Part shown: positions 1-56,649 of the stretch, piece by piece
Layout of the letters: every line of letters begins with the position of its first letter
How positions within the stretch are numbered: position 1 is the first letter of the stretch
Assembly: GCA_013115145.1 (NCBI GenBank)
Contig: JAAPAO010000077.1
Span: 1-64,000 of the forward strand
Direction of reading: 5' to 3'
DNA length: 64,000 bases
From: Perkinsus chesapeaki
Taxonomy: Eukaryota; Perkinsozoa; Perkinsida; Perkinsidae
The notes under the pieces: model-generated
What the model was told of the DNA's origin: nothing
Databases searched by the model: none
The model's input: only the letters and a program-made list of their open reading frames with translations
Translations under genes and position numbers: made by a program

Positions 1-212
1 ATTATTAAGTTGAACTTGTTTAAGACTTGTTCACTTCGTTCCATTTGGCATTGAGTTGTCTATAGGAACATCAGCACTTCCAAAGCCTAGCGCCAGAATT
101 GCCCAAGTGCAATCAATATGTTATCGGCCTACAACAAATTTCAAACGGCCCCGGAAAGCCACCCGCGAAGATATACCCTACGGGTTACTTTCCAAGACAT
201 TCCCTCAATGCC

Positions 213-246
213 AAGGTCGCTGGTTCGATCCCCAGGCCCGACATCC
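213..246 (+). repeat. tRNA T-arm-like fragment
   Basis: A GGTTCGATCCC-type B box with short flanking complementarity (GCTGG before, CCCAGG after) lies here on the plus strand. No complete cloverleaf can be folded upstream. It resembles the tRNA 3'-half pieces found inside Brr2 introns further along. It may be a tRNA-derived short element; a chance match is possible. Confidence 0.3.
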
Positions 247-421
247 TCTTACCTCTGTCTCTTATTATCAGCAGCCATGCCAGGACCATCAGGACGCGAC
301 ATCTGCCTCTTCTCACTGTAACTAAGATGCAAGTGTAACGTCGACATGAGAATCTCAGGAAATTCCGGCCATTTAAAAAGTCTCAGCACCTACACAGTGC
401 CGCGAAATCCTCCCCTATTGC

Positions 422-13030: not shown

Positions 13031-13087
13031 TACGAGACGCGAGTAAGTTCAATTCGTCGACGATCCATCCCAATTAAGTACAGAAAA

Positions 13088-13243
13088 ATGTCCGATCCGC
13101 GGTTCGAACCTGTGGAGAGCACGGAGCAGAAAAACCATCGCTCGCCTCAATTCTGCCTTGTGCCGTCCGAGGGACAGCGCTACTTCTATATCGCTCGCCT
13201 GAAACTGCATATCTGTAACGGTTCTAAGATAACTGTTCTATAG
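13088..13243 (+). CDS. possible small ORF or first exon
   Basis: The 51-codon plus-strand frame starts MSDPRFEPVESTEQ and contains QFCLVPSEGQRYFYIARLKL, which has protein-like composition. It is divergent from family gene 5 with a 57 bp gap. It could be a free-standing small protein or the first exon of a gene lost downstream. No family recognised. Confidence 0.25.
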   Translation: MSDPRFEPVESTEQKNHRSPQFCLVPSEGQRYFYIARLKLHICNGSKITVL

Positions 13244-13920: not shown

Positions 13921-13934
13921 AAACCGATTTTGAA

Positions 13935-13998
13935 ATTCAGAATCGATTCCAGAACTGCTTTTTACACGTTAAATGCGATGCTGGAATCGATTCTGAAT
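13935..13998. repeat. 18-bp inverted repeat, 28-nt loop
   Basis: The left arm ATTCAGAATCGATTCCAG (13935-13952) is perfectly complementary to 13981-13998. The flanks pair imperfectly for about another ten bases on each side. The shape is that of a long hairpin. It opens the palindrome-rich tract that runs to about 21.3 kb. Confidence 0.85.
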
Positions 13999-14036
13999 CT
14001 CAGAATTGGTTTAATGAACATTGGGTAAATCCAGAG

Positions 14037-18145: not shown

Positions 18146-18573
18146 TTCGCAACACTTGGTTCCATCATTTTTATGTACACCTTTGTCATTTTTCCAATCT
18201 TCGTTCATATACTTGAATTTATAATGCGAGGCCGAAGACGAACTGGCCAGTTCACCTGACTCTGAATAGCTAGGCCGCGGACTCCGCGTCCCTCGGAGCT
18301 TCTGAGACCATGGGAGTATTAACCTGAGTTTGGTCCAGACCTCCGTTACGGAGTCTAACCGAATGTCGTACTTCGATCAAGAACGGGTATCAAGAGCGCC
18401 ATCGTTTGTAGTTCACTTTTCGATTAGTTCGTCAAGGATTCCCTACACGCGTACTCTATTCGAGTGCTCACTCGGAACACAATGACGATATTGAATGATC
18501 GGCCAATTGTGATATAAATGGCGAGTATAGAGAGGGACGAATTATGTTTGTAAGGAAGGAAGCGGTTATTGTG

Positions 18574-18622
18574 TTCATAGGCTATGAAACAGCGGTGCTA
18601 TGAAACATAGGACCGCTGTTTC
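18574..18622. repeat. nested palindromes in copy A
   Basis: TTCATAG-G-CTATGAA (18574-18588) overlaps an 11-bp inverted repeat, GAAACAGCGGT (18586-18596) with ACCGCTGTTTC (18612-18622). Copy B lacks the intervening ~30 bp, so the hairpin is an insertion in A. Confidence 0.85.
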
Positions 18623-19035
18623 CTTTCCAAGCGACGCCGTGTTATCCTTGAATTGCCTTATTCGCTGGTGCTGGGCTTTACTGACAACAACCAGAATACA
18701 TTAAAGAGCACAGAAACGCGTTCTTCACAAATCGTGAATCATCATGATTTAACCATGTCCACTCGCTACTCACAGCCGACCGGTTGCCTCGGGAATATGC
18801 ACACGACCGCCAACCTCGTCAGAGTCGGAGGCTCAGACGGCTTCGGTTCGGGCATAATCGGTACTGACAGGTCTGGCTTCATTTCCTTCAATACCTCAAC
18901 TTCAATGTCAAAGAGTGAGCAAAAGGTGAGATGCTACAGTACCTGATTAGCGAATATATCGCGAAGTATAATATCCGTCCTTACAGACTGTAAGTTACAG
19001 TAAGGCACGACAGGGTGTAGTCACGCGCGTCGAGT

Positions 19036-19068
19036 ATCTCGGGCCCCGAGATTCCCCGAGACTCGGGG
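19036..19068. repeat. two adjacent 1-nt-spacer palindromes
   Basis: ATCTCGGG-C-CCCGAGAT (19036-19052) is followed by CCCCGAG-A-CTCGGGG (19054-19068). Copy B has only a single ATCTCGGGG at this place, so about 24 bp were inserted in A. Confidence 0.9.
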
Positions 19069-19199
19069 TGCTCGTTGAGTTCTCCGTTGGGTGCTACCAT
19101 CATTACAGGGACGGTGATTTGTTGTTTTGAGTAGATGCTGATTCCGATGGGAAGATCAGAGCTTACGTATGAAGCCTTGATATAGAGAATTCGATCCAG

Positions 19200-19218
19200 A
19201 GTCTGGATAATCCAGACT
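19200..19218. repeat. perfect 9-bp palindrome, 1-nt spacer
   Basis: AGTCTGGAT-A-ATCCAGACT. Shorter 5-bp one-spacer palindromes overlap it on both sides (CCAGA-G-TCTGG, CTGGA-T-TCCAG). The segment is absent from copy B. Confidence 0.9.
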
Positions 19219-19331
19219 GGATTCCAGACACCTGATGGGATGGAAATTGTCCGAAGCCGTGGCGATGACCGACATGTCCATTCGCGCTGAATCATACCAA
19301 CCTTCTCAAACCATAAACTTTCGAGATACCT

Positions 19332-19579
19332 TTCGAGATTCTCGAATCGAGAACTCTACAGTGTCTACAGGAGGCTCTACAGCGTAGACCATCAAAATGG
19401 CTCTCTCAGCTCAGTTACTGAGCCTCAGTGGACTGTGCTCATCCTGCCCTCAGGGCAGGATGTCAGTGCCCTGCCATTCTTGCTCCCTGAGAAGAAGAGC
19501 CAATTTGACTCTTGAGTTTGAAAGTCAAATATACGATTGATAATCAATCATTGATCTTGCCTACGCTGTATTATACAGC
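19332..19579. repeat. cluster of five 1-nt-spacer palindromes
   Basis: Read directly: TTCGAGA-T-TCTCGAA (19332-19346), GCTCAGT-T-ACTGAGC (19409-19423), CATCCTGCCCT-C with its complement (19440-19462, 11 bp), GATTGAT-A-ATCAATC (19535-19549), GCTGTAT-T-ATACAGC (19565-19579). Random sequence would give about one 7-bp one-spacer palindrome per 16 kb. Confidence 0.9.
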
Positions 19580-19885
19580 CTATATACTCTATTGTTGATG
19601 CACACTGTCCGTCTTTTCGTTTTTGTCATCTTTTCATCCTAGAATGACTCGCAAACGTTACTGGAAGCCCGTATACCACAATCAGATAGGTGGCAGTGTG
19701 ACATCCTTTCTCTGCCGACTTGTTATGGATGAGTGTACCCTGCTACTTCACACTCTTGAATACAGACGGTAGCAATGAACGGAAATGCAAGTGTGGCCCC
19801 CATACGAACTGTAACTATCAACTACGTATGATTCGTTGTGGAGATGAGTTCGACATTGTGGTTCGGGTAGGTGATGAATCATCAC

Positions 19886-19938
19886 GGAAATTCCAAGTTG
19901 GAATATCATCACTGATGATATTCCAACTTGGAATTTCC
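19886..19938. repeat. perfect 26-bp palindrome, 1-nt spacer
   Basis: The 26-nt arm 19886-19911 (begins GGAAATTCCAAG) is followed by a single C at 19912 and then by its exact reverse complement, 19913-19938. The adjacent 19871-19885 is another palindrome, GTGATGA-A-TCATCAC. This is the longest of the class in the window. Confidence 0.97.
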
Positions 19939-20040
19939 AAGCGCACGCTTTGTAGAGTCAATCCGTTCTCTGTCAGGGGACTTTCTTCGGAGTCAAACCC
20001 TCGGGAACGTCAGCGCCACCCGGCGGACATAGAGAGTTTC

Positions 20041-20825: not shown

Positions 20826-22030
20826 AACTTTTCGCAACACGTGATTGATACACCTTTGTCATTTTTCCAATTCTCGTTCGTGTTCTTGAATTTATAATGC
20901 GAGGCAGTTGACCTGACTCTAAATAGCTGGGCCACGGACTCCGCATTCCTCGGAGTTTCTGAGGCATGGAAGTATTCGCCACTGGAGTTTTTTCAACGAC
21001 ATTTGTACGGAGTGTAACCTAATAATCAGGTTAACCTAGCCATTTGTTTTAACAAACGTTGTCATGTTAGGTCGAAATATCGTACTTCTATCGGGTACTA
21101 CGAACGCCACCGTTTGTCGTTCACCTTTCGATTAGTTCGTCAAGGGTTCTCTACCAGCACGAGTACTCTGTCGGACAGAGTCTGTCCGAATGCTCACTCG
21201 GAACACAGTGACGATATTGAATGATAGGCCAATTGTGCTATAAATGGCGATTATGGAAACTTTCCATTAGAAAGAGATGAGTTATGTTTGCTAGGACGGG
21301 GACAGTATTCTGTTCGTAGAATCGTTGTTCCTTCTCAAGCGAAGTCGTGTTTTCCTTGGATTGCCTTGTTCGTTTGTGCTTCGCTAAACTGGCAACAACC
21401 GGAATACATTAAAGGCCACAGAAACGCGTTCTCCACAAATGATAAATCATGTCCACTCGCTACTGACAGCCGAGCTGGTTGCCTCAGGAATATGCACAGG
21501 ACCGCCAACAACCTCAGACGGCTTCGCTTCTGGCATCACCGGCACTGAGAGGTCAGGCTTAGCCTCCTTCAAGACCTGAACTTAAAAGATAAATGGACAC
21601 GAGGTGGTGGGGTGCTACCTGATTAGCGACTATATCGCGAAGCATAAAATCTGCCCTTGCAGTAGGACATGGTAAAAGATAGTCGCACGCGTCGAGTATC
21701 TCGGGGTGCTCGTTGAGTTCTCGGTTGGTTGCTACCATCATCACAGGAACGTTGATTTGCTGACAAATGCTGATTTTGACTATCAATTCAAAGCTTACAT
21801 ATAAAGCCTTGATGTAGAGAATGGGATCGAGACACATTATAAGATGATAATTGGCCGACGCCGTGGCGATGACCGACATGTCCATTCGCGCTGAGTCATA
21901 CCAACTTTTTCAAATCATGGACTTTCGATATACCTTTCGAGAACTGCAGGCCCTCGAAGTGGTTCTTCCAGCTGACACCGCCCTGATTCTTGCTTCCTGA
22001 GAACAAGAGTCAAAGTCAAATGTACGGAAA
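20826..22030. repeat. segmental duplication, copy B
   Basis: Partner of 18146-19530. It keeps the intact uS2-like gene. Its own extra hairpins relative to A are at 21165-21189 and 21253-21267, so insertion of palindromes has happened independently in both copies. Confidence 0.85.
21165..21267. repeat. copy-B-specific palindromes
   Basis: ACTCTGTC-G-GACAGAGT (21165-21181) is nested with TCGGACAGA-G-TCTGTCCGA (21171-21189). ATGGAAA-C-TTTCCAT lies at 21253-21267. Copy A reads straight through both places without the extra bases. Confidence 0.9.
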
Positions 22031-30722: not shown

Positions 30723-32826
30723 CTAGCTCGAAGGTGGAGCAGCTGCCATCACTCCATTGGCCCCTGTCTGCTGCTGTTGCTGCATGAGGATGTCGTTCTG
30801 CTGCTCCGCGGCCTTTTTCAACGTTTTCGATTCCTTCACTCGGTTGCATTTGTTAATGCGAATCCCTCCACGCTTCTTTATTTTCATACGAATGCGATCT
30901 CCCGATGATAGATTGTAATACGCCAAAGACTTGCTGTCGTCGCTGAAAACATTAAGGTGCTTTCCCCCATCACCAGCGAGACATACCGGCCAAATTTAAT
31001 CCGGAATTCCGGCCTTCATACCCCATATACGACAATACAATTTCTCTAGGGCCAATCCGGAGACCCGTTATCAACGTAATAATTGTGAAGTCCGTTCTAC
31101 CCTGTTCACTATATATTCGAAGACCGCCACTATCAAAGCCACGATCTTTTTTTGTGGTCATACAGTTATCTCGAAGTTTCCCCTTCCCCCAGAGCCCTTA
31201 TTACTTCAGCACTCCAGTTTCCCTCACAATAAGCTTCATAACCCCTGTTTTCCATCCCTGTGCTCTCGACTCTAGCATAGCCTTAAGCTCCCCAATGGTC
31301 ATTCGCATACTCAAATCATCAATAACTATATTATTAGGTGACACTTGGCCCTTCTGTCGAATCGGTGCTGGAATTCTTTGTATTATACGTAGAGAGAGAG
31401 TATCACCTGCCATAAGACTAAATCGATCACGTGATCGATTTCATCATTCTACGCACTCTCAAGAATTTTCTAAACGTTCTCAAAGACCATTATTCAGACG
31501 ACGAGACAGAGCCAGTCATCGACCCGATGCCTGGCAACGGTTATATTTTAAAAAGTTGAAAACGGTTGAAAAGATAACTGAATTTTCTTCAGTTTTGCCG
31601 GCTAAATCCCACTTCAGTCACCCAGCACAAGCACTACCTTTCTTAGCAATCCATTTATCCTCGGGCAGCAGATCAACTCCCAATGGTCTTCTAATGCACA
31701 GATCACGCATGTGGCCTCGCCAAGGGTCGATGGCTCCGAATCCACGGACGTCCAATTCACCCCTTTTCGCTTTATCACAAGTTGATATGATGAAGCCGGC
31801 CTTGGAATGGGCGTTCAGGAAAAACGCGCTAAAATAGTTTGGAAGATATGAACGAAATCTGGGATGTTTTGGCTTATTTCAACCACAAGCAATTAAACCG
31901 CTCTTAAATGAAAATAAATGAACTTGAGCCGCCGCCTTCTAGTTGATCTTCTAGTAGTTCTAGATTGATCCCGATTCCTTTTGCCACTTCAGTACATGGC
32001 CGGAAAATCACAAAGTGCCCTTGAACCAACCTGGGCCGAATGACGAGGAAAATATGTATTTTGAGTGGCTTCAAATTTAAAAGGGTTACTTGGCATGCTT
32101 TTCATAAGGTCAGAGATATTATTCAACAAAGCCCTGAAGCGATGGACTCTTACCGATCCGCATCCAAATGGTCCATAACCTTCAACAAAAGAACATCCGG
32201 AAGAGATTGCATCACCACCACACACTTGAGATCAAGTTCACCAGGGCGAAGTGTTCCATCTGAAGCCGTAAAAATTCATACCACATTTCCTCCTACTCGC
32301 GCTCAGGTATTACCCCGAGACCTCGCCGCCGAGTGCAATGCGGGTGTCTCCACGGCAATCTCAGACTGGTCCCTCACCCAGACCAAAATCGATCATTCGA
32401 TCGATTCGCGCTATTCCTCCATTACTACCTTCCAAGTACTTCACGATCCTACTCCTCACTGGTTTCGGCAGGAATCTTGCCGCGTTCATCGCAGCATCGT
32501 CGCCGTATTTATCCAACTCCGGGCAATAACTATCCGGCTGCGTCCCCAACCCTAGCGGTGTCTCATCCACAGGATTCCATTGCATTCCAACATACGTATC
32601 ACGATCACCTAACAACAACCAACATTCGTCACGCGCCACAAAACTCCCCTTAATTACTCAGAACTTTCATCTGCGCACATTGTATATGCTTCGCTCTCTC
32701 CTCCGGTGTAGCCAATGTAGTTTCATGACCATTACCGCCAGCGATAGGACGTGGCTCGCGCATGGCCGAAGGTGGCTGCGGCATACCCGACATCATACTC
32801 CCGTTATGGTTCATATTGAAACTCAT
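30723..32826 (-). CDS. protein with SF3A1-like C-terminal ubiquitin-like domain
   Basis: The last exons (31413 to 30723) read as the ubiquitin-like domain that closes splicing factor SF3A1. NNIVIDDLSMRMTIGELKAML is followed by LRIGPREIVLSYMGYEG, DDSKSLAYYNLSSGDRIRM and KIKKRGG, matching the SF3A1 layout of a beta grasp then LAYYN...GG. Human SF3A1 stops at the Gly pair plus a few residues; here a Gln-rich tail follows. Earlier exons (start at 32826, MSGMPQPPSAMREP; KYGDDAAMNAARFLPKPVRS; SLPDVLLLKVMDHLDADR) do not show the two SURP modules expected of SF3A1. It is therefore either a divergent SF3A1 or another protein sharing the domain. An ATCGAT-palindrome intron lies at about 31.43 kb. Confidence 0.45.
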
Positions 32827-34016
32827 CGAACACTAACATACATAGCGAATCAGTTCATACCGACATTCCCTCCGTTATCTACTTGGTAACTCTCTCGAAG
32901 TACCCCTGTACTCCCTAGGATAGTCTAATACAGCCCTCCCCAATGAAATAAAACATTTCGTTTTTTAACGATTTCTCGTCTGCTATTGAGTGTGCGACCT
33001 TAAAATTCTGCAGCATAGTACTAGAAGACACAGCAAGGAAGAATATGCAAATCGATCAACCATTTCATGCCTGGGTGCAAAGATACCGGCGCGCGAAATT
33101 TACCGCGCGCGCAGGACTGCCTCGGTAAAATAGAATACTTTCGGAAGACACGCGATAGAACCCTTCAATAGTATAACTAAATTTCAAAGAACAGCTCTAC
33201 TCCATTCCTCAACAGTGGTGGGCGTTGGGACGCGGCGTCATCGGCCGTCAGCTCTCTACTCATAGGAGCGACACTTTATCCCAAGCCCATCATCCACCGA
33301 TTTGAGGGCAACGCCAGGGAGGTCACTTGTCATCATACATGTCATACCCCAGACTACTGAATCATAACCGAGAGCTAGCCAAAACCGCCGCGGTTAATTG
33401 GTAGAACCAGAGCCCTTCTAATATTACCAAGAGCTAGTTCAAGCAATCCTCCCGGAACCTCCTAATAAGAAGACGCGAACCCGACTAAAGCGAAAGAATT
33501 AATAACTGCATTTATCCACAATCTACCCTCATCCTCCAATAGGGCCCTATAAGACATGCTTAACCAAAAGGAAGAGTAGGTGAACTCAACAGTTACTATT
33601 GCTACTACGTAGGATAATAAGTTGGGAAATTGTAATGAGTGATCATTCGATCGTTCATCATCATCATCACACTGTGATCTCGACCTCATACTCGTGATCG
33701 GCACCCATGAAACTATCGCTCATCAAACACCTAAAATATGATACAGTACATAGTCAACAATTATCAATTATAAAATATATATCGGAAGAGGAGCGGTATG
33801 GAAAGCTAAGAGAATTGTTAATATTGCAACAATAGCGAATGATGACAAAGACAAGTAAAATGTAAAAATCGATCGCAGAGAGAGATACCAACTATACGAT
33901 GTAAGTGGCAAATATATGGCAATGTACAAAATAACAGAGATACTGTTTCCATCCAGGATCCTCCAAAACGAAAACGCTTCACCGAAACCAGAGCAACCAA
34001 GAGCGCGTATTCGTCC
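32827..34016. other. no firm gene; weak minus-strand ORF
   Basis: A minus frame at 33462-33704 has a mixed hydrophobic stretch but no flanking exons I can join. Several TCGATCA strings (33052, 33650, 33870) recall the palindromic intron motif. A CGCGCGAAATTTACCGCGCGCG self-complementary patch is at about 33091-33112. Confidence 0.35.
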
Positions 34017-37000
34017 CTACAATGTATAAGCGTATTTCCCAGGCTTCTCCGGCAGCCTAAACTGCAGCTTCGCCTTCACTTGAGCTTGATTGATAGTAAC
34101 TCTACGGATCGCAACAAGACTGTCCTTCATACCAGCCACTAACCACCAGGATTCCTCCTTCTCACCAGGATAATACCTAGCAGCTTCAACCATGCACCAC
34201 ACCCGATCTAAAGATACTCTTACTTAGCGTAAACCGGCACGAATCCAGCCGTTTTATCGATCACACCCAGATCGCCATCCCTCTCCAATACAATAGGAAT
34301 CTGTCACGAAATCGATCAACCAAATCGATCAACCGTTTCATCCTACAGTCACAGTCGTGCCATCCTTAGACTTGTTGATTTTATACTCCATATTGATGCT
34401 CGGGAACTGATTGCACGCTTGCGCAACTTCAGCAACTTGTGACTCCGACAAATTCCGGAATAGTTTATTCCTCTTATCATCGTCCAAGTCCAATATATCA
34501 AGCACATCTTCAACCTAAGATACCATCCCACAAAATGGTAAGCAAAAATCGCTTCGCTCCGCCTACATCCATTTTCTTAGCCTCATCCACGATATCCTGA
34601 GTAATATACGGTAACTGCATCAACAGACTAGTGTCCGGTCCCATCGCCTGGACAATCATCTGTGACAACTCCATTGCTCTCAATGCTACTCGGTACCTAA
34701 CACCAAATCGATCACCTGGGCGCGCGCTAAATACAAATCCTACCATTCGTTACTGGCAACAACATCAACCATGGCTTGAATAAGCCTGGTGGAGTTGATG
34801 AGGATGGTCCTCTGGTCGGCTGCGAGATCAGATCCTGGAAGCCTTTGGCGGGCCAGGTGGGCGTGGAGGAGAATAATGCACTTAACGACCGGATCGCCCT
34901 GCTTCAACTTGTTAGTTTCCACAGGAACCTAATCGATCAAAGTGCATCCAAGTCAACCTTAAGATACTCCCCACCTTCAGACGCTCAGCCAAGTTCCTGA
35001 GAGGTCCCTCCTCGCCAGGGCGAACAGGAATAGACTCGAATTCCGTCGCGCCACATAATGCTTCGACCAGAGCGCGCCTCTTGCTGGTGCGGGTGATGTT
35101 GCGTGAGAAGATCTCAATAGTCGATGGTCTCGTGTAGTAATACCTGATTAAGATAACAACAATTTTTAAATACAAGTGTTGATCATATAATTTAATTTTA
35201 ATAATCAATTCACTCAATCTGACAGTAAAAATTTTTAAATAAGTCTTGAATTGTAAAACATAAGCTTAGCATCAACCTAAGATACCAAAACCAACCCAGA
35301 CAGTTCTATTATGTATATTATTTTGATTCCACAATAATCAATATGTAGCCTGCGTATCTGTGATATAACGACGAAGCTCAGCCCACACCACATTGCACCA
35401 TGCTCACACTACAACCCCATCGAACGAGACTACTATTTTCGATCAACTTGATAATATTTCTTCTCAAAAACGTCAAGACGGTCACGCCTGGCGATTCCCC
35501 CTCGGAAGATTCCAAAATATCCCCTTAAACGTTGATTGAAATGTATAGAGAAGCGATATGACGTAAATATAAGACAACAGCAAATACATCCCACTTACGC
35601 TGCCACCATGCCAAGATTAGTGCTGCTCAAGGTTATCTCATCATCACCAATTTCGATACAGCCTGTCTGAGCCAAAGCATCAGCAGTCGACTCGATAATC
35701 TCAGACAAGAAATCTGATATCTCTTGTGGCGACACACCCTACAAAAAAGTTAAACAAAAAACGCTTCGCTCCGCCGCTTACCTGTAACGAATAGTAGTTA
35801 GGATTGCGTGTGATTCTTCTATAGAAGAATGTCCATGTTAACCAATCCACCGCATCTTGCTTGTTCTCTATGGTACCCGAAACAACCTAGAAAGAATCTT
35901 ATCATCGCACTATAAAGATTTCAGATCCGCCCCATTGAGCGATCAATGACATTCCAAGGAACATCATCACTTTTCCATTTCCCATCCAATTTTTAAACCC
36001 GGAATTAGCCCATTTCGTTTTTAAAATGAATCCTCCAGTTCAAGTTCCCATGTATCGTATTCAGGAAGTGTCCATGACAGTTTATATCGGTATCATAGAA
36101 AAGTTCTTCACAAAATTCCGAGTCCTAACTCTACCATTCAGTCCAGAGGTTTATTCTCATCTACTCTATAATATTAAATATTATTATGACGCATTTATAT
36201 TAATATTTTTTATTATATTTCATGTATATAATATCTACATAAATTCACACCATGCATAATCAATTCCTCAACCCGCCCACCTCAGCATTAAGATGATCCG
36301 TAAGTTTCTGATCAAGTTGAGATTCAACGGGCATCGGCTCATAAATGAACTTCTTATAGTAATCCTTCTTGGTAGTCGGACACAACAGTGCACACCTACA
36401 AAACCGGTAAACAAAAATCGCTTCGCTTCGCTAAACCTACGTAGCATGATCATCAATTCCAGGCCGACCAGCAATGGACATCATCTCAACTACATCAGCA
36501 ACATCATAATCGACATAACGACGTTGCCTGATCAAACGCAAATCGATCACGCGATCGATTTCACATCCATCTCACCTGGCATCATACTTAACCGTATCCA
36601 TCACCACAACCATTCTACAGCCCGCATTGCGCGACTGCGGCAAAAGCCCCCAAGCAAGGTCAACAGTCACCACCATAATCTGCACAAAAATGCCCCTGCC
36701 TCGGTTCGAACCCACGCCCTTACCTGTACTGCGCCACTTTCAAACAGCTCCATTAGACAGTCCCTTTCCCTATTGCTCAGACCTTCATGCATGTATCCGA
36801 CGCCATGCATCAATGACGTCACCAATCCACGCTCGCGAGTCTTCCAACCGTACTCCTTCGAAAGACCGCTGATATGCTCCTTCATAGCTTCCTCTGATAT
36901 ATGACGGAATCTGCACGCATGCACATAAAGATACAAAATAGGTTAACTCGAATGCACCCTTACCTGTCCGGACTGTTATCAGCTGTGGCTTGGAGCATCA

Positions 37001-40000
37001 GGTCGGCTGCCACCATTCTGCTCTGTCGGCGATCCCCAACAAACACCACCACCGGTTGAGTCGGAGAGTTCGCCTTAATCAAATTATACCTGTTAAACAA
37101 AAACAGTCATTCGTGAATCGCTTCGCTCCGCTAAAGTACGTAGGTCTGGTCATTGCAGCCATTCTCGCATTTCTGCTGTAGATGTCGTAACCATGAATGA
37201 TGACCTTCACCGGCACCGCACGAATCTTGGTCGGGAAGTTAAATTGAGAGGATACCGGTGCGCCCATCCAACCACCGAGATCGTTGGCATTCTGAAAATA
37301 AAATGTACCAACCAGGATTCGAACCCACGGCCTCCTTTCTTCAAGAGACCTCCGAGCCGGATTGACACCAGTGTAGCAATGCAAGTGGCACGTTATCAAC
37401 CCGATAGTTTCGAAGATTTGCCACCAAATCCCCAAAATGAGTCTATTCCCCAGCGAAATGGCACTGCAAAAATCTACCGGAAATTTCCACCAATTTTTCC
37501 CTTACCAACAACTGTGAGCGGAAATTCACATTTCATCACCGATTTACACCTTGAAGATTTTATAAACATAATTCCGCTCGTCTGACTTATGAAAAAGTGC
37601 GCCCGATAAAGCGACCGATAAAGGGGACCTACCGAGACGGACGCCGCCAAACCGATGATCCTGCATGGCTTGAAAGTCTCTCCATTTTCGGATGCCTGCG
37701 CTGCCAAGTTCGAGGTGATATATCTGATACCGACATTCCCAAATCTACACGCATGCACATGACACATACCTCATCCTCGACACGCACACTTCCATTGTGG
37801 CACCGACTGTAGGGTGATTCAAAAGATGCAGGTCATCGGCAATGAAGAGAGATACCTGACAATAATGCGAAATGGCCACCAACGGTACATTATCCAACTC
37901 GATGCCCAAGTACGGTGGTAAATCCATCGAGCAAAATGCGATTTAATAATCTACATTATGATATTAATTCTTTGATGTTACGGGAATGATTCTGATTCTG
38001 AATTTCATGACTGGGTAAAAAGTGCTAATTTTTCCACCAAAAACCAATTCCAAAGGAAATTAAATTTCCCCAATATCGAGAACCTACTCTAAAAAGCATA
38101 ACGTTGTCATTATTCCACAAAGAACCGCGTTCGAGCACATTCCCTTCCGGCCAAATTCAACGGCTTCTCACCTGTTGCACCGGCTTCCGAGTTCTCCACC
38201 TCCTCGACAACATATCCCAGTGCTCTGGTGTGGTGATGATAATATGCGACGAATCCAACAGCTTCAAGTCTTGCGAAGCCTCACCTGACAATCGCCATAA
38301 TTTAGCTAATTTTCAACCAACGCGAAAATCTTCTCACCAGTGAGTTTCGTAACAACACAGCCGAGGCCTTCTGACCCGAACTTCTTCTGCCAGTCAGTCA
38401 ACCTCAACTCCGCAAGCCGTTCAAACGGGCACATATATACGCATCGTTTAATCTGACAAAATTGGTAAACATGAAACGCTTCGCTCCGCCTACATCATAT
38501 TCTTTCAGCATCCTTAACACAGCAAACTCGGCACACTGCAATTTTCCAGAGTTGGCCGGCGCGCACAAGAGCGTGTTCTCATCGCTCTGGAACATCTGTG
38601 TGAACGTCTGCGTCTGTATAGGGTTCAACTTGCCAGCTAAGACAATGCGCATGCGTGCAGGCCTATCTCATACCGCTCTTTCCCCTACTCGCGCCATAGA
38701 AGACCTGCTCGGCCTTAGGCCACTTCAGTGCGGTTATCGGCAATGGCATCAGATCCAACAGCTCAGTCTCTGGAGGATTCCTCTCCGGTAGAATCAAACG
38801 ACGGAAGTTAACGGGCAACAGAGACTCTGCTCCAATCCACCTGATTGAGAAAAAAACGAAATCTTCGCAGTGCGAAAGATACGCCTCAGGGGCTGGCGTA
38901 TTCCCAACAATTCCAAAGGCGACCCAAAAATTTTCGCGAACCTAATTCGGTTTTTGCGATCGCCCATCGGCCTTAGGCTTATCAAACGAAACTCAAAGGT
39001 AAGCGAAAATTTTCCACTGGTGTCTTTCGATCAACCTATTTGGAATCTTTTGCCCCGAATGCCATTCCCAAATCCTTACCTGTCCGACACACATCTTATA
39101 AAGTAATGTGGCGGCATTGGATCTGTGATAGGCACCGTGAAGGTAAGCGTATGCTCCTGGTCAGCCTGGGACTGCCTCAGCGCAAACAACTCGTAATATA
39201 GTATAGTCTCCTGCTGAGTATCTTCAACAAAGATCCAGAAGGGCTCCGTAGTGGAGTGAACCTGAAACTCAATTTCTACTACTTCACCCATTTTCGAAAT
39301 TCCTCTCAAACTGCTACGCGAAATCCCCCTAGTGGCTACGAAAGCAATAGTCTCTATAAAATATTCCACCGAATATGATATACTATTCGATATCATACAC
39401 CTAAGACACCCCATCCCCACAACGCCGCTCACCTTCGGGTCGAACTGGAAATCTGGCGTCAATGTGAGTTCCACCAGCAGACAGCTACGAGTCAACGGTT
39501 GGACATAAGCCGCCAAATCAAGCTTAGGGAACTGATGGACGTATTTGTAGATGTGCTTTCCTGAAAAGGTCGCGAGTTCAAATCCCAGGTGGGGTATTTT
39601 TATAACCTAGTTTCGGCGCCCTCAGAAGTTCACCAATTTCGTGAGGTTTGTAATCATAGTACTGCTCGAAACGAATATCTTTCTTCTCGATTTTACGTAG
39701 AATATCCTGAACGTATCCAAGCTTGAAGCGCGCATGATGCAAAATAGCTCATACCTCCGGTATCTCCTTGAAGTGCCTTAAAGGAGTCTGTACGCTCCAG
39801 AAACGCTTCTCGACCACTTTGCTCCAAAGAAGCGCCTTCTTAGCCAGATCGGCCCAACCACGACGCAAAGCAATCTCAAATAGAGCACGGAAAATACGAC
39901 CAGCAGATTGCTCAACATACCTGATCAAACAAAAAGCATGCACGCATGCACAACATCATATAAATTCAAAAAGTTGCTATTTCCAAGCGGCGATGTCGGA

Positions 40001-43000
40001 ATACATACCCCTAATCCTAGGCCTTTCAGACCTGCCCCACTGAGTGCTAGAAGGGGGTCAACCTTGCTATAGCTTTTTACATTAGCATTTATTATTATCT
40101 TAATTCCTTAACAAACAGGTTGGTGAAGCATAAAGGACTTAATTTCCAACTGTGTCCATAACTGAGACTCCACAATACTCCATCATCGTTATTCACTATA
40201 TTATTATTCCTATAATACCTCAACACTGAAGACCCTCCCTCAGCTTCCCCTCTACCCCACCATGCCCACACTTACACCATGTCCGCTTGTAAGGCAAATC
40301 CATCCAGCGGCAACCGTGAGATATAAGCTTGCAGCAACACGTTTATCTTAGAGCCCGTCTCCTCAGCACCGCCCTTAACCGGTATGGGCACCTATTTGAG
40401 AAAAGATTCCCCAGAGCTTGATTGGCTAACCTCACCTTCTCCACCAGTTTACTGAGCTCAACCTTCTCCTCTTCTCTAACCGGAATGTATTTGAATTCCG
40501 AACTCAATGAGAATAGACGAAGCAGCTCTATATCAGACATGCGGGGCTTTAAATGTTGATTGTAGACAGCCATAGATGGATATCTGAATTAGAACAGAGG
40601 AAGTTACGGTATGAAAATACACAACAAAAAGTTGGAAGATGTCGACCATTTCTTCCTTAAGTACTTCGTCTAACGAAGCTATCGTTTTATCCTTCGTCAG
40701 TTCGACCCTTGCCGAAGCTTCACATGGTCGTTCGTGTTCAGTATATGTTGAGTAAGTAAAGGGAAGTTGGCCCACTAGTATTAACTGTATAATACTAATT
40801 CACATTTCCTATAATAATCATTTGTATAATTTATGCACGTCTCGAACCAGTATTAAAGATTTTGACGACATCTACAAAAGACTCCCTTCGCCAACGCTGC
40901 CTTGCGACCTCGCACGGCAGTGGTGCCAGATGATCATTTCATCCATCACTAGCCATCATCTCACCTTCACTTATACCATCACACCATCATCAAAATTTCA
41001 CGCGCCACAAAATTCCCTTTCTTACTTTATGTAATAATGTGCCGCAACTCTTCCCAAAGCTGTTATGTGGCATTGACCTGTTCTCTTATCGTATTTTACC
41101 AAACCATTCTTATCCAGCATCGACATGGCAGCATGGCAGAGATTAACACGATGCTGAAAAGGACAGAAATTGACAAATCACACTCACTTCCACAATTCTA
41201 AAAATTCTACAAAGCTCAGACCAGCGGGTCCCCCCCCGTCCACGCCGAGCGGCAGATAACAAAATCAATATGAAAGCTGGCAAGGACAATTTCGGTGAAT
41301 TCCCCAGCAGCATTAAAATTCCAATCCAAGCTTACCTGTATGAGCTTAGGATCATCCCTAGGATTCCCCTCCTCATCCCCCATCGGCACACCGTACAGCT
41401 GCGGTGCTTTCATCATCCTTACGTGCAGGTAAGTGTACCCGAGCCAACGGACGGCGTCATCTCGTGATGCTATGGTGCCAAGTGCCATCTCAGCATTGAT
41501 CATATCCGGCAGGGCAGATAGCATCTGCGATTCAATGGGAAGTTGAGTATTGTTAAGTGATAGGTAATATTGAAGCTCAGAACGATTGGTGATGACGATA
41601 CCTGAGAGAGGGGATGAGAGTGGATTGGACCAGGCTTGAAGTTGAACAAGATTCACACCCGCCATATCAACCCGCATCCCTCAAGCAGCACCAGTGGCAA
41701 TGCTGTTACCCGTATAACCCAGAACGCACAAGAAATTGATAATTTGATCCATGTTATATTATAACAAGAGTATTGATAAAGTGCTTCATATAAAAGTGCC
41801 ACTACTAATAGCTCTATCCCCCCTATTTCTCACCAATCTAGTAAATGCACTATTACCAATGATCTACAACTCGATACGTGTCATTATTATCAATATCTCT
41901 CGCCCCCCTACTCACCATGTCCAGTAGTATCATACTGTGGTCGTCCAGCTCTACCCATCATCTGCATCATATCCATCGGACTGAGTTCAACCCAATCACC
42001 CTTCTCCGGGCTGTACACTTGCGTGCCCTTAATAATAACCGTATGCGCCGGTAAATTAACTCCCCACGCCAAAGTCAACGTCGACACCAACACTTGAATG
42101 TGACCGTCCGCGAACAGATCCTCCACAGTAGTTCTATCAACTCTGGCCATTCCTGCATGATGAATGCCAAAGCCATACTTCAACAGATCCGCCAGATCCG
42201 GCGACTTGATCGTGTTCTCAATTTCATTCTCGATAATCTGTTTCGACGCTCCGCTGTCCGGCAGGAACTTCCCTAAGATTTCCTTCTCCATCGCCATGTC
42301 TCTCAGCTCCCTCGCCGTCTTCAACGTATCCTTCCTTGAATGTACAAATATGATAATCTGGTTGTTTCCAGCGTCCGCTTCGACCTTTTCAAACAATACT
42401 TCGTTCATGACATTAGCCCGTTTAATCGCCTTCTTCGAGCTCACTCCCACATATGTCTGGTCCAATGGCACCGGTCGATACTCCTGGCCGAAATAGAAGA
42501 GCCCACGGTTCAGGTTGACCCTCAAGAAAAGGGCGACATCCTTGTAGTTGGGCAAAGTGGCCGAAAGTCCCACCAACCGAACGTGCTCCTGAGTCTGCTC
42601 AATCTGCCGCAACGTACGAGCAACTATGGATTCGATGACAGGACCACGACTGTCGTGTAGAAGATGTATCTGAAATAATGAAACAAGAACCTCCTTGCGC
42701 TCAGTAATCTCCACAGTCTATCCCGCGCTCTTCCCCACAACAGTTCTTGCCGCAGTGAAGCTACTCCCAGTCGGTAAAATGCATACCGACTCGAGCTCCT
42801 ATGATTCCCCTCCTTCCCCGCATTCCTCCCCCAACTACCTCATCAATTATAATGAGTTTAACCAAAGCCGTGAAGCCTCGACTTTCGCCCGCCTTCCGAG
42901 TGACAACATCCCACTTCTCAGGAGTAGTAACAATAACATTGGTCTGCTCGATCTGTTCACGGCTGAGGGATTGGTCGCCGGAAAGCTCCTTAACGGTAAG

Positions 43001-46000
43001 ACCGAGGTCTCCCAAACGAAGAGAGAAGGATTGTACGACTTCCTGAAGTACAGAGAAAATAGCCGGTCGGTATAATCCTTTGCTATCATCCAGGCAACCC
43101 CGGTTCGATCCCCGCCCACCTGCACAAGTGCCTTCATTGGCGCGACATAGACCATCTTGAACGCGCTCGTATCGAAGCCATCTTCAGTCCTATACTGCTT
43201 CAACACCTACCACACCAGCAATCCTTCCTATGTCTTCATACCGACTTTTTCTCACATTCATGATCGTCAGCATAGCAACATTAGTTTTACCAGCACCAGT
43301 TGGCGCACACATCAATAGATTCTCCTCAAACTCGTTGTATGCCACCGGGAAGACCTGAACAACAGTGCAGCTAGAGGTGTCAGAAAATTCAACAAAACTC
43401 CTCACCTTCGATTGTACAGCATTCAACCTCTCAAAGTGCTTGAACGCCGGCCACGCCCATTCCGGTAGAGCGTCCTTAACCTGATCACCATAATTTAGCT
43501 AATTTCCATCGTCTTCGAAAACCCCCCTCTACCTTGATCAAAGCTCCCTCTTTAACCTTTGCCTTCGGTGGCGCCTGCACCACCACTTCCTCGTATCCTT
43601 TATGGCTCGAGGTAAACACATCGGTGTTCTTAGCGGGCTCAAACGACTGATTGCTCATAAACCTAAGCAATCAAAATTACATTAAAAATGCCCGTACCGG
43701 GGATCGAACCTGGCTCCTCCAGGCAACTGGAGATTCTCCAGATCCAAGAGCTTGGTAGGATTAGGCATCTTAGCAGCTTCCTTATTCTCTCCAGTGGAGT
43801 CGGGCATCTCAACATCACCATCATCATTGGCTGTAGAGGACCGTTTCTCGCCTTCCCTCAGTTTCTTAGCCTCGGACCTGAACAAGTTAACTTCACATTC
43901 ACCCCGCAATACATTAGACATTCCGTAAAAGAAAAGCCCTACAAGACGACCTCCGGGAACTACGGGCGCAGGCGATATTTTTCTTCCTTTACATTTTTAC
44001 CAACTAAGTCGGCCTGGAATATTTCAATTTCGCGTGGCTTACAGTGTTCCTGACAATCTGACAGCTGCAAATAAGAATATATTTCACTGCCGAGATGCCT
44101 TATACCGTGAACCCATCCTCCCACCTTAAATTCCTCCTACGGCTTCCACCGGCCTCTCTCTCGCCCTCCTTATCCCCTTCGCCAGCCTTGTCGTAGTCTT
44201 CGTGATGATGAGCAATACGCCATTCCTCAACAACCTCAGCGGCAGCTGGATCCTCGGTCATCTCTTTCTCCAAAGCTTCACGCTCCTCTAAAAATAAAAG
44301 TACCCTCCGTGGGATTCGAACCTGTGCGGGTTTGCCTACCTGGGGTTTGGGCTTGATTTATCTTCGTGCAGTACCATATCTTTATCCTGTTATTAACCAA
44401 GATCTTGCAGAAGTCGAAGTGCTTATATTTGAAGATTTGCACCAACTTATTCTCAACGCTCTGCGAGTCCGGCAACCTCAGCACGTCCAGAATAGATTTC
44501 TCCACCGAGATGACTTCCGAGCTATCCTTAACTCTTTTACCCTGATAACATATGAATACAATAGATAGTAATAAAGTAGGTAGGCCACCGCCGGGCCACA
44601 AACACATTACCCTAATACCAAGCGAATAAAGGGGCGATGATAATACACAGTACAAAGGTACCGAGACATATACGAAGAGGAGAAGAAGGAGCAAAAGAGG
44701 AAGTTCATAAATTACCAGACAACTTCACCTAGCAACACCAAGGCAAACTATATCTCAACTGGTTAGACCAATGATACTTGTTGTACATTTTACAAATGCA
44801 TCTTAACTGTTCAGAGACTAGAACGCGCAGTCACATGAACCACAGGCAATTATCCAACCTCAACCGACCCAAGAAGTTTATTACAAGTTCTCTCTGAAGC
44901 CAATGTGAATGGATCTTCTGGACTGGCAGGTCGGTCGAGGAAGTGTTCCTCTTCTTCGCTGCCGGGCCTTCATCCCCCTCCTCATCACCAGCCTTAATAC
45001 CGGCATCTTCATCATCATCTCCACCTAGAAAAGTAACAGCATCGATTCGAACCCACGACCTTCACAATAGCAGCCCAACCCCTTAACCATTACCCCGTTT
45101 CCTCCTCTTTCCGCCAGCGTCCATTCTATCATCCGCATCAGAATCTTCAGAATCGCTACTGGATTCATCCGACACTTCATCAGCGTACAACATATCATCA
45201 TCTCCTCCCATCTCTGAAATTAATCCACATACCCTTCCAATGGAACGAATCCACAATCACACCACTCGATGACGAACAGCTCAACTAGTTTCAGTAAGAT
45301 ATCGAATAAGTTATATTATCAATCTCACACCAGTGGCCGCTCATAAGCGTATTCACTGATCGATAATAATAATATAACTATATACAGTACTAGACATCCC
45401 ACAATTCCTATTATGTACCATAATAGTTTATATACTCTATGGATAAAATATGTATTACCCCTACCACACTATAATGACACTGCACTCAATAACAACCAAC
45501 CTTCCCCCAACTCACCATCATTCTCATCATCCTCATCAAAAGTAACAGCAACACCTGCCGGATCATCAGCTGCCCCTGCCAGCAGTGCAGCATCGACCTC
45601 CTCTGCTCCACCAGCACCGCCGCCCTCAGCGGCAGCCACTCCTTCATCCTCATCAACAGCAAAGTCATGGATTTGTTGGGACAGCCTTAACAGTTGAGTA
45701 TAAAGCTCATTGGTTAAGGAGCGAGGTGGCAGGATCTAAAACGAAACCCATTTTAACGGAGAAAACCCGAAACCCGAAAACCCGGATCCCATGCCGAGTA
45801 ATATGTATACCTACACATGGCGTGCAAAACCCTAAAGTCATGCATCAGGCAGGGTAAACGTTTCCCCGATCCCCTCCCTTCACAGCACCGACAGTTTCGA
45901 ACAAATGACGTACTTATCCATTACCGAAGTGCAAAACTGCCAAACTTCGCCCGCGAATTATTCCCTACTAGTGACACCCTTTTTGCTAGTCCTCCCAAAT

Positions 46001-47113
46001 CTCATCGACTTGCCCCAAGCCCCCTATCCTACCTCCTCCACATTCTCCTGCTTCAAAGCATCCTTCTGGTCCGACTTCAGTGCCATCAATATCTCATGCG
46101 CAGCTTCCCTCAATACCGTACTAGTCTCACCAACCAGCACAGTTGATAACACCGATAACATCTCATCATACGGCCTTTCAGATGCCCGGGATTTCGGTCT
46201 GAGGGAGCTCCTATAAAACCCCTCCTCCACCCCAGAATCTACCTGTATATATCTTCTCCTGCCTCTCCCACAGTAAGAACTGTCTCCCCTTTATTAATAT
46301 CAATACCCTTCCGACGTTTACGTAGACCTTTATCACCACCAGCCTCTGTAACAGCTTTCCTGAACAGATAAAATGCAATAGTAATATTACAGGATTTGGT
46401 CGCGTAAAAATTTAGCACATGCCGATTTAATTAACTTCACATTAAAAAATGTAGATATCCGAAATACGTTGATTTCAGACAAGATACAAAATAATTTAAT
46501 CGGCGAAAAACTAATGGGCAAATTTCTCAAATTTATATTCATTTACCATTTCGACTTTCCACATCAAAATCGATGCAACGTTCCAGTGTACAGCCTCGCG
46601 AGAACTAATAGACACTAATACGTAATTACGGGTTTGAGACAAAGCGGGGTGTGAGAGAAGTATTACACATGCCGTCGTTTAGCTGCCAAGGCCGCCTCTG
46701 GCTTCGGCTTGGTCTTCAGGACCTTGTCTCCCATGGTGTGCATTTTATGGTACCGCAGAGTCTCTGGCTCACCTGGAAAAGAGAATCGTATATTGCAGAT
46801 AAATCAACCTAAGTTGCATCTTACTCACTTAACCTCAAGATACGACCCATCCGTATGACTACCAAGTGAACTATAACTGAGCCTAATCCGAATTTAGCGC
46901 ACCTAGCTTAGATACTTTCTACTACAAACAAGGTGGGCATCTAGCACCTCCCCTACAACCTATAAAGTATCTTTCTCGCGTGAAGCTAAGATATCCCCTA
47001 TTACCCGTAGGTTCATTAGCCAGATGACTTCCTCCACCAGGATCCCTCTGTAGGACTAAGTTACTGTTCTCCTTATACTCGAACCGCTTGAAACGTTCGA
47101 ACTCCTCAGCCAT
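34017..47113 (-). CDS. BRR2: U5 snRNP RNA helicase Brr2 (SNRNP200)
   Basis: Spliceosomal Ski2-like helicase that unwinds U4/U6. The start ATG at 47113 gives [14 protein letters not shown], the conserved Brr2 N-terminus. Exons then follow the whole human order: [11 protein letters not shown] (46.7 kb), the acidic/PWI-like region (46.2-44.1 kb), KGYEEVVV (43.6), Walker [12 protein letters not shown] (43.3), [10 protein letters not shown] (43.15), [22 protein letters not shown] (42.66, split by an intron), the 251-codon exon 42669-41919 with HHAGM and [12 protein letters not shown], the first Sec63 unit ([18 protein letters not shown] type, 40.5), cassette 2 (38.6-36.3), Sec63 unit 2 (35.2-34.5) and the Ig-like end SWWLVAG...KYAYTL. 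Cassette 2 has degenerate motifs. The human C-terminal tail is missing. More than 30 introns, mostly 40-70 nt, are implied. Confidence 0.95.
34301..34346 (-). other. Brr2 intron, TGATCGATTT family
   Basis: 46-nt GT-AG intron between TTVT and [10 protein letters not shown] codons. It contains two copies of TTGATCGATTT. Confidence 0.8.
34515..34566 (-). other. Brr2 intron, GGCGGAGCGAAGCG family
   Basis: 52-nt intron. It begins GTAGGCGGAGCGAAGCGATT, continues through TTTACC/CTTACC and a T-run, and ends GGTATCTTAG. Removal joins AKKMD to [10 protein letters not shown], matching the human alignment. Confidence 0.85.
35739..35781 (-). other. Brr2 intron, GGCGGAGCGAAGCG family
   Basis: 43-nt intron GTAAGCGGCGGAGCGAAGCG, then T-run, TTTAAC, T-run, GTAG. 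Flanked by the NPNYYSLQ and [10 protein letters not shown] codons. Confidence 0.85.
36396..36440 (-). other. Brr2 intron, GGCGGAGCGAAGCG family
   Basis: 45-nt intron GTAGGTTTAGCGAAGCGAAG, then CGATTTTTGTTTACC and ending TTTTGTAG. It joins GIDDHAT to [12 protein letters not shown]. Confidence 0.85.
36528..36575 (-). other. Brr2 intron with ATCGATC palindrome
   Basis: 48-nt GT-AG intron containing AAATCGATCGCGTGATCGAT followed by TT, near-palindromic. The same motif occurs in the intron near 31430 of the neighbouring gene (AAATCGATCACGTGATCGAT and TT, a perfect even palindrome). Confidence 0.8.
36680..36723 (-). other. Brr2 intron made of a tRNA 3' half
   Basis: A 44-nt intron that consists of splice ends around GGGCGTGGGTTCGAACCGAG, a 3' acceptor-like GGCAGGGGCA and TTTTT. 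The exons SGAVQ and [11 protein letters not shown] on either side match human SGAIQ and VVVASRSLCWG, so the insertion is exact. Confidence 0.85.
37090..37139 (-). other. Brr2 intron, GGCGGAGCGAAGCG family
   Basis: 50-nt intron GTACTTTAGCGGAGCGAAGC, ending TTTTTGTTTAACAG. It joins MTRPTY to [11 protein letters not shown]. Confidence 0.85.
37292..37632 (-). other. long Brr2 intron ending in a tRNA 3' half
   Basis: 341-nt intron between LAASVS and [10 protein letters not shown] codons. Its last ~60 nt hold GTGGGTTCGAATCCTGGTTG, then GTACATTTTATTTTCAG. It is the same arrangement of T-arm, acceptor, oligo-T and splice acceptor as the shorter members. Confidence 0.8.
38453..38493 (-). other. Brr2 intron, GGCGGAGCGAAGCG family
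   Basis: 41-nt intron GTAGGCGGAGCGAAGCGTTT, then TTTACC and ending TTTTGTCAG, immediately after RMLKEYD. Confidence 0.85.
39561..39606 (-). other. Brr2 intron with antisense tRNA 3' half
   Basis: 46-nt intron between PKL and GKHIYKYVH codons. Read on the plus strand it is GGTCGCGAGTTCAAATCCCA, GGTGGGGTA, TTTTT: a tRNA T-arm and acceptor inserted opposite to the gene. Confidence 0.8.
43041..43119 (-). other. Brr2 intron with antisense tRNA 3' half
   Basis: 79-nt intron after [10 protein letters not shown]. The plus strand reads CAACCCCGGTTCGATCCCCG CCCAC at the donor end, so the T-arm is antisense to the gene. Confidence 0.8.
43663..43727 (-). other. Brr2 intron with tRNA 3' half
   Basis: 65-nt intron between DLENLQ and FMSNQSF codons. 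It holds GCCAGGTTCGATCCCCGGTA, CGGGCA, TTTTT, then an AT-rich stretch and CTTAG. Confidence 0.85.
44288..44339 (-). other. Brr2 intron with tRNA 3' half
   Basis: 52-nt intron GTAGGCAAACCC, then ACAGGTTCGAATCCCACGGA, GGGTAC, TTTTATTTTTAG. It joins NQAQTP to [10 protein letters not shown]. Confidence 0.85.
45025..45093 (-). other. Brr2 intron covering most of a tRNA body
   Basis: 69-nt intron between GGKRRKRG and GDDDEDAG codons. It starts GTAATGGTTAAGGGGTTGGG (A-box-like TGGTTAAGGGG), continues through an anticodon-arm-like stretch to GAAGGTCGTGGGTTCGAATC, and ends GTTACTTTTCTAG. It is the most complete tRNA-like intron seen. Confidence 0.85.
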
Positions 47114-47224
47114 GGTGAAGAAGAACAAGGAAGAAGATCTGATCAATCAAATCAATCAAGTGCCAGAATGCACTTGATAAAAGCATGGGCAGTTGCGAAT
47201 GAAAGAACATAGAAATAAGTAATT

Positions 47225-47359
47225 CATAATAGTGAATTTTTAGGAATTCCGAATTGCTTTTTACTGTCCTTTCATGAGCCCCTATATTATGATGATTAGT
47301 AAATATTAAGTGATGAAGGACTTATAGATAATTGTGATACTTACAGGTGGAAGCAAAAT
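47225..47359 (-). repeat. 135-bp block shared with 56650-56783
   Basis: Read on the minus strand it aligns without gaps, at roughly 80-85% identity by eye, to the plus strand at 56650-56783. Shared strings include TTCCACCTGTAAGTATCAC and TA(A)TATTTACTAATCATC followed by (A/G)TAATATAGGGGCTCAT. It lies about 110 bp upstream of the Brr2 ATG. It contains a GTAAGT donor and an ATAG acceptor in both copies. Confidence 0.85.
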
Positions 47360-56404: not shown

Positions 56405-56461
56405 CTGGAAAATTAAATTACAGTAAAAATACCTGAGCCGGGGATCGAACCTGGGACCTAC
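56405..56461 (-). other. intron-like tRNA 3'-half element
   Basis: 57 nt: GTAGGT, then CCCAGGTTCGATCCCCGGCT, CAGGTA, TTTTT, AT-rich tail, TTTTCCAG. Same structure as the Brr2 tRNA-type introns but in a different gene, probably in its 5' UTR. Confidence 0.7.
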
Positions 56462-56649
56462 CAAAATGCTATGGAAATTCTCTAAAGGCATTCGTTTGCA
56501 CCTTAAATGCGTCATAGAAAGTACGAGAATCGTCGAGGAGGTGGTCGGCTCGGACGACACCGGAAAGTCACCAAATTCGCCGACCAAAGGTGAGCCTGTT
56601 GCAACTAAATTTTGAATATCGTAATTTCCTTATCAAATGTTTTCCCTTT

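Follow-up and report, generated by a model that had tools for sequence, protein, structure and literature searches.

The origin of new introns is an old open question, which the Brr2 (SNRNP200) gene of Perkinsus chesapeaki poses in a concrete form: how did one gene come to hold several introns that look, for most of their length, like the 3′ end of a transfer RNA (tRNA) gene? The gene lies on the minus strand of the first 64,000 nucleotides (nt) of contig JAAPAO010000077.1 (assembly GCA_013115145.1), and this whole stretch is called here the window. A B box of the RNA polymerase III (Pol III) type is present in seven Brr2 introns, of which six are 44-77 nt long and consist mostly of a unit of about 33 nt, and the seventh measures 341 nt. 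A sequence-only reading of the window had taken such introns for tRNA-derived elements inserted into exons in either orientation. The observation is real and goes beyond chance; the interpretation has partial support and is plausible. As the best reading of these sequences, we hold with moderate confidence that tRNA-derived elements became introns. The make-up of the sequence, its spacing and orientation, the reading frame at the junctions and the occurrence in several genes are established at the level of DNA, and splicing is predicted.

Brr2 introns that carry a B box

The minus strand between 36 and 46 kb was read, gene models were built by eye and with a small gene finder of our own, and the protein was compared with public proteins. 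Brr2 has a predicted span of 33667..47275 on the minus strand, based on the gene finder and on homology with U520 of Perkinsus marinus, and its 5′ end is uncertain; it would hold 41 introns in the hand model (46.2 to 34.2 kb) and 46 in the final run of the gene finder. The closest public protein is P. marinus U520, with 96% identity over query residues 160-1200, which we take to be a gene prediction and not a cDNA product. Once the introns of the hand model are removed, the frame is open from GKRVKD to the stop codon; upstream of 44542 the hand-model script was in another frame, and this part is open in the gene-finder model. Ten residues of the hand model at 35.2 kb lack a P. marinus counterpart and probably belong to an intron, and a modelled 37-nt intron at 38637-38673, where five residues are missing from P. 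marinus, is probably wrong. The splice-site weights of the gene finder were trained on 33 hand-picked introns that included all seven unit introns of Brr2, and it is for this reason that the protein comparison serves as the independent check. The minimum intron length of 30 nt was our own setting; early versions that chained introns or merged genes were changed before use, the later version still fuses neighbouring genes, and the gene models are rough.

Four of the short introns, all on the minus strand, carry the unit in the sense of the gene. The one at 45025..45093 (69 nt) contains an A-box-like TGGTTAAGGGG, the B box GGTTCGAATCG and a TTTT adjoining its CTAG acceptor, and the one at 44288..44339 (52 nt) has a B box, 12 nt, TTTT and the acceptor TTTTATTTTTAG. 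At 36680..36723 (44 nt) the unit GGGCGTGGGTTCGAACCG is followed by a T-run. In the 47-nt intron at 43663..43709 the GTTCGA of the T-loop forms the donor (G followed across the splice site by GTTCGATCC) and the unit runs to the T-run. The sequence-only reading had placed this donor at 43727, which is wrong because the donor of 43663-43709 lies inside the T-loop, giving the junction PGGA-RFMSNQ that aligns gap-free with P. marinus. A 45-nt stretch of the same intron is 84% similar to 56415-56459.

As had been proposed, two further minus-strand introns hold the unit antisense to the gene. That at 43043..43119 (77 nt), formerly delimited as 43041-43119, has a donor GTGGGC adjoining the antisense B box GGGATCGAACC, and carries an exact B box at 43102 yet is unmatched by the unit profile described below; that at 39561..39606 (46 nt) reads, on the sense strand of the unit, GGTCGCGAGTTCAAATCC, 11 nt and TTTTT. 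In the seventh intron (37292..37632, 341 nt, minus strand) a sense unit occupies the final ~48 nt only, with the acceptor TTTTATTTTCAG, so that the description of units squeezed between GT and AG does not fit here. Six of the seven junctions are gap-free against P. marinus Brr2, with 25-28 of 28 residues identical. The exception, 45025-45093, sits where the P. marinus model starts (MGGGDDDED), and only the right side of its junction is supported.

A recurrent unit with a terminator at tRNA spacing

In the window the B-box pattern GGTTCGANNCC has 7 matches where 0.42 are expected (17-fold), a number reached in none of 100 shuffles, and in the 35.4 Mb (884 contigs) of the genome searched it has 1877, against 287 for the reversed pattern (6.5-fold). 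Of 39 places examined in sequence among 100 listed (eight of the 39 chosen as GGTTCGAATCC), ten are tRNA genes. In a sample of 334 kb, about one third of which was fetched for B-box or tRNA hits, 55 exact matches were found, 20 in tRNA genes and 35 elsewhere. A TTTT lies 9-12 nt downstream of the B box in 16 of these 35, and at exactly 11 nt in 12 of them, compared with 1 of 53 control motifs and 3 of 20 tRNA genes; 18 of the 35 have no TTTT inside 40 nt. Eleven nt past the B box is where a tRNA gene would have its terminator, and a B box with a Pol III terminator is what is expected of a tRNA-derived short interspersed nuclear element (SINE). The same spacing is seen in 6 of 13 cases in 224 kb of contiguous sequence, made up of the window, which was the reader's choice, and two stretches selected without regard to B boxes.

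A weight matrix of 12 copies gave in these 224 kb 21 matches at 10 bits or more, against 1 in the reversed sequence, and 20 against 0 at 12 bits or more; five of the 12 training copies lie inside the sequence scanned, and the 21 include one intronic place (C1:264738-264783) twice, once for each strand. A profile made from 16 units, of which four come from Brr2 introns, found in the same 224 kb 17 places at an expectation value (E) of 5 or less, including six of the seven Brr2 introns (E 4.5e-9 to 0.0056). The 16-copy consensus contains AGGTCGCGGGTTCGATCCCCGGnnGGGGCATTTTTA, with AGGTC, the B box, GGGGCA and TTTTT in the order of a tRNA 3′ end; judged by eye, this tRNA-like end keeps 4 of the 5 pairs of the T-stem. 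The flanks of unit pairs are alike beyond chance (score of at least 8 in 9.1% of pairs on the left against 0.3% in the null, and in 11.5% against 0.5% on the right); by eye, similarity extends beyond the T-run in one pair only (43710/56451). The acceptor-strand sequences are diverse, and the B box has drifted in several copies (39606, 36723, 45093 and the AIF3 copy introduced below).

Unit introns in other genes

The element coincides with predicted spliceosomal introns in unrelated genes, namely the six short introns of Brr2 (five with aligned junctions), an aligned one in AIF3, and probably two supported by an open frame. The AIF3 intron (44 nt, C664:25102-25145, or L047:5102-5145) holds an antisense unit and agrees with the annotated P. 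chesapeaki protein P0121, which reads YTK before it and DLHGEG after it; P. olseni P0122 has YTKDLHGEA at the same place. Our gene finder placed the splice sites of this intron correctly and read the flanking exons in a wrong frame, which the annotated protein corrected. Two further introns, one of 44 nt with a sense unit (L059, in a gene of low score, 13) and one of 48 nt with an antisense unit (L066, gene score 44), are probably whole-unit introns, as judged from an open frame: in both, 75 nt on each side are open when spliced and closed when unspliced. A palindromic case of 64 nt (L004) was left out of the count. Six of the nine whole-intron cases come from the sequence-only reading, AIF3 from a matrix scan of DNA picked without regard to B boxes, and L059 and L066 from B-box hits. 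Altogether, the reading of whole short introns as a recurrent tRNA-derived, SINE-like unit in either orientation is supported in Brr2 and AIF3 and likely in the other two.

As a separate observation, contig C19 carries inverted pairs of B-box units about 200 bp apart with their 3′ ends facing (L059 656+/855-; L063 654+/857-).

Length and splice sites of the unit introns

The nine whole-unit introns measure 44, 46, 47, 52, 69 and 77 nt in Brr2, 44 nt in AIF3, 44 nt in L059 and 48 nt in L066. The median length of the predicted introns is 53 nt (n=325; 5-95%: 39-341) in one set and 69 nt (n=407; 38-351) in a later one, in which 184 of 407 are 60 nt or shorter. Seven of the nine, at 44-52 nt, keep fewer than 20 nt once a 33-nt unit is subtracted, a remainder too short for an intron in this genome, where the 5th percentile is 38-39 nt. 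Adding such a unit to an intron of 45 nt would bring it to about 80 nt, and the nine cases span 44-77 nt.

Of the five sense cases (45025, 44288, 43663, 36680 and L059), four have the AG no more than 12 nt past the start of the T-run, the distance exceeding 20 nt in 43663. Among the four antisense cases (43043, 39561, AIF3 and L066), 39561 and AIF3 have the complemented terminator region as their donor (GTTATAAAAATACC, GTAATAATGCC), and 43043 and L066 have no T-run.

A mechanism can be proposed on these grounds. The introns would be of the ordinary spliceosomal GT-AG type, their bodies consisting of decayed copies of a short element of Pol III type. This element would stem from a tRNA gene's 3′ end and comprise the variable loop, the T-arm containing the B box, some 11 nt of the acceptor strand with the discriminator base, and a T-run. 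A tRNA-derived transcript would have been inserted into exons, by a retroposition that, like the creation of the intron, we infer, and most copies would be shortened at the 5′ side, as by incomplete reverse transcription. In sense copies the Pol III terminator would lend its T-run, together with the AG after it, to the 3′ splice site, and a GTA(A/G)-type donor would lie 5′ of the T-arm or, once, inside it as GTTCGA; in two antisense cases the complemented terminator region would supply the donor (GTTATAAAAATAC, GTAATAATGC). Such an element of ~33 nt would be nearly a whole intron, because this genome splices introns of ~40-50 nt.

Decay of the unit

The sequence-only reading spoke of tRNA 3′ halves, and single copies do not bear out that these are intact. 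Of the three outer T-stem pairs, 1.41 on average are formed in 17 units with a T-run, 1.32 in 19 other non-tRNA matches and 1.13 in the null, against 2.95 in 20 tRNA genes. This loss of pairing suggests worn SINE-like copies and not tRNA halves in use. ARAGORN found no tRNA gene in the window, Rfam gave no family at gathering score there, and Rfam likewise detected no tRNA at nine unit-bearing loci; real tRNA genes were rejected on the blank ARAGORN and Rfam results in the window, the lost T-stem pairing and the lack of a cloverleaf. An A box at tRNA distance accompanies 5 of 20 units, or 4 of 17 when three coding-motif hits are excluded, compared with 2.1% in the control and 38 of 41 tRNA genes. 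The three hits in question (6717, 8374 and 10280), exonic matches of the profile, are one conserved coding motif, LGFELMPKID, and therefore lend no support; it mimics an antisense B box in a tandem gene family (6674-6798, 8331-8455 and 10237-10361). A primer-binding site has a length of 18 nt. Descent of the unit from such a site was set aside by reading, the antisense unit lacking a TGG beside the acceptor strand and exceeding 18 nt.

Among genuine tRNA genes, many near-identical ones for tRNA-Arg(tct) (L010, L012, L013, L015-L017, L025, L027) are clustered on C440 and C328, contigs of 27 and 33 kb, and 62 of the 63 candidates scored, from 3361 first-look candidates genome-wide, matched tRNA genes.

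Weighing the origin of the unit introns

The location of the units was expected to favour introns. Matrix matches of 10 bits or more in the 224 kb number 12 in introns (49 kb), 4 in exons (124 kb) and 5 in intergenic DNA (51 kb), the match at 43683 having been moved from exon to intron on the alignment with P. marinus. With Brr2 included, introns differ from exons (p 0.00015) and, less clearly, from intergenic DNA (p 0.06). Among introns of 80 nt or less, 6 of 41 in Brr2 (one through its B box and not the matrix) and 1 of 361 elsewhere carry a unit (p 5e-6), in a small sample and with Brr2 picked by the reader for its units. The excess of introns over intergenic DNA rests on Brr2.

Several results weigh against an origin of these introns by insertion of the element. 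Without Brr2, introns and intergenic DNA have 5 matches each (p 0.51), and the claim that units are commoner in introns than between genes does not survive this removal. Intergenic DNA does hold units (5), as do long introns of 233-341 nt. Matching bases at the intron ends, which should have revealed target-site duplications at the splice sites, number 2-5 in the six short Brr2 introns (mean 3.3), 2 in AIF3, 0 in L059 and 2 in L066, that is 0-5 bases and none long among the nine, compared with a mean of 2.1 in 184 short introns, and the predicted duplications were not found. Two unit introns used as DNA queries against the genome, with a tool that skips very common words, matched only themselves, so that there is no sign of recent copying of these two. 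RNAalifold on the 16-unit alignment predicted no pairs and no consensus structure, and none of 10 units from other loci has an A box. Finally, the P. olseni AIF3 model P0123 has seven extra residues, ECVQFRS, exactly at the intron site, which P0122 lacks; V-Q-F-R fits the B box GTTCAATTCCG, which is no proof, and the residues hint at an intron in P. olseni as well, so that the unit may be younger than its site.

A rival idea is that units entered introns that already existed, which later deletions trimmed to the usual 40-50 nt while the unit was kept by chance. It agrees with the units in long introns and intergenic DNA, with the hint from P0123 and with copies old enough to have lost T-stem pairing. 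On the other hand, seven of the nine cases are 44-52 nt long with little beyond the unit, and strong trimming pressure is not evident because over half of the predicted introns exceed 60 nt (184 of 407 do not); we regard this course of events as rather unlikely. Fragments of tRNA genes or pre-tRNAs might instead have been pasted in during double-strand-break repair, with no SINE family involved, which would suit the diverse acceptor strands, the lack of long target-site duplications and the lack of close copies of the two introns tried. The 3′ boundary falls recurrently at the terminator, however, and likeness of the flanks beyond the B box is less expected of unrelated patches, which makes this origin improbable.

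Selection on the B boxes themselves, for instance as extra TFIIIC sites within genes and with no mobile origin, would explain why B box and T-run are better preserved than the T-stem, but the apparent conservation arises because copies were selected by B box, several of these have drifted (39606, 36723, 45093, AIF3), and the T-run has no role in TFIIIC binding; we give this explanation very little weight. That the units are parts of real tRNA genes, either split, permuted or intronic, has in its favour the tRNA 3′-end geometry and the many genuine tRNA genes of the genome, and is already contradicted by the blank ARAGORN and Rfam searches of the window and by the outer T-stem (1.41 against 2.95 of 3), to the point of being hardly credible. 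The conversion of tRNA-derived elements into introns remains our preferred reading. In its most specific form, a Perkinsus tRNA-derived introner, Pol III transcripts would have been copied into exons and spliced at once either way, because the terminator would act as a 3′ splice tract in one direction and offer a GT-A-rich donor in the opposite one, and several short families (including the GCGGAGCGAAGCG repeat treated below) would have filled Brr2, a gene that itself belongs to the splicing machinery; this version we advance tentatively, as a possibility with somewhat less than an even chance.

Other units and repeats in the window

Outside Brr2, a minus-strand unit at 56424..56465, bordered by GTAGG and TTTTCCAG, lies just 5′ of the predicted start of a gene, with no coding flank shown. 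Another on the minus strand (13083..13124), found by matrix and profile, is intergenic according to the gene finder, and a plus-strand unit without a T-run (208..249) is intergenic in the final gene-finder run, an earlier run having placed a gene at 113-937.

Five further Brr2 introns of 41-52 nt (38453-38493, 37090-37139, 36396-36440, 35739-35781 and 34515-34566) are copies of GTAGGCGGAGCGAAGCG...TTTGTTTACC...TTTTGTAG. The core GCGGAGCGAAGCG of this family occurs 410 times genome-wide against 0 for its reverse, and 7 of its 10 places with one mismatch in the 224 kb are intronic, five of them in Brr2, with 1 place for the reversed control. This family is a clearer and more conventional introner candidate, and it shows that repeats of several kinds make up many introns of Brr2.

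Introns of the window also share the motifs TTAGCTAAATTATGG, the palindromic ATCGATCGCGTGATCGATTT, GTGCATGCGTGCA and GTGGCGCGTGAAA (43481-43532, 38285-38337; 36528-36575, 31407-31637, 32260-32428; 36912, 37746, 39939; 40996). Elsewhere, the paralogous stretches 18176-19338 and 20849-21942, about 2.7 kb apart, contain repeat pieces 73-90% identical, and hairpin inverted repeats at 19879-19941 and 13914-14019 match microRNA models (E 2.4e-6 and 6.4e-4) under the gathering scores.

Relation to known elements and significance

Elements of the tRNA-derived SINE class contain a B box and a tRNA-like 3′ part, with a decayed cloverleaf and shortened copies. The Perkinsus unit resembles them in all these features, but no tRNA-unrelated body or tail of a long interspersed nuclear element (LINE) was seen in it, and it stops at the T-run with tRNA spacing. 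Passages of PMC2394776 name MIR, B2 and ID as tRNA-derived SINEs, and describe how a SINE insertion gave the rice catalase A gene a coding intron and how Alu elements underwent 'intronization' in four human 3′ untranslated regions; in SINE exonization, according to the same source, the poly-T acts as polypyrimidine tract and a following AG is a favoured 3′ splice site. The rice and human cases are like our reading of Perkinsus in that a SINE inserted in an exon turns into an intron, but they are single events, whereas here several introns of one gene, of ~45 nt, contain little but the unit. The early impression that no such case had been described has therefore to be set beside a precedent, single SINE-made introns being already in print (PMC2394776).

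Introners, as characterized in the main text of PMC9860276, form families with median lengths from 30 nt, some without target-site duplications and terminal inverted repeats; their splice sites are supplied by the element or by the target, and most families may move by DNA-based mechanisms. Like these and the introner elements of Amoebophrya described in PMC7789003, the Perkinsus units would be short repeats that form introns in several genes, but they differ from them in that the unit is the 3′ end of a tRNA and its copies are strongly diverged. Neither 'tRNA' nor 'SINE' occurs in the main text of PMC9860276, and no paper pairing introner with tRNA-derived and SINE, or with retrotransposons, cryptons and helitrons, was found in the open-licence literature.

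Introns made of a tRNA tail in either orientation point to a little-known route by which introns may originate. If the proposal is true, genomes that bear SINEs and accept introns of ~45 nt could gain introns by means of a Pol III terminator and a nearby GT.

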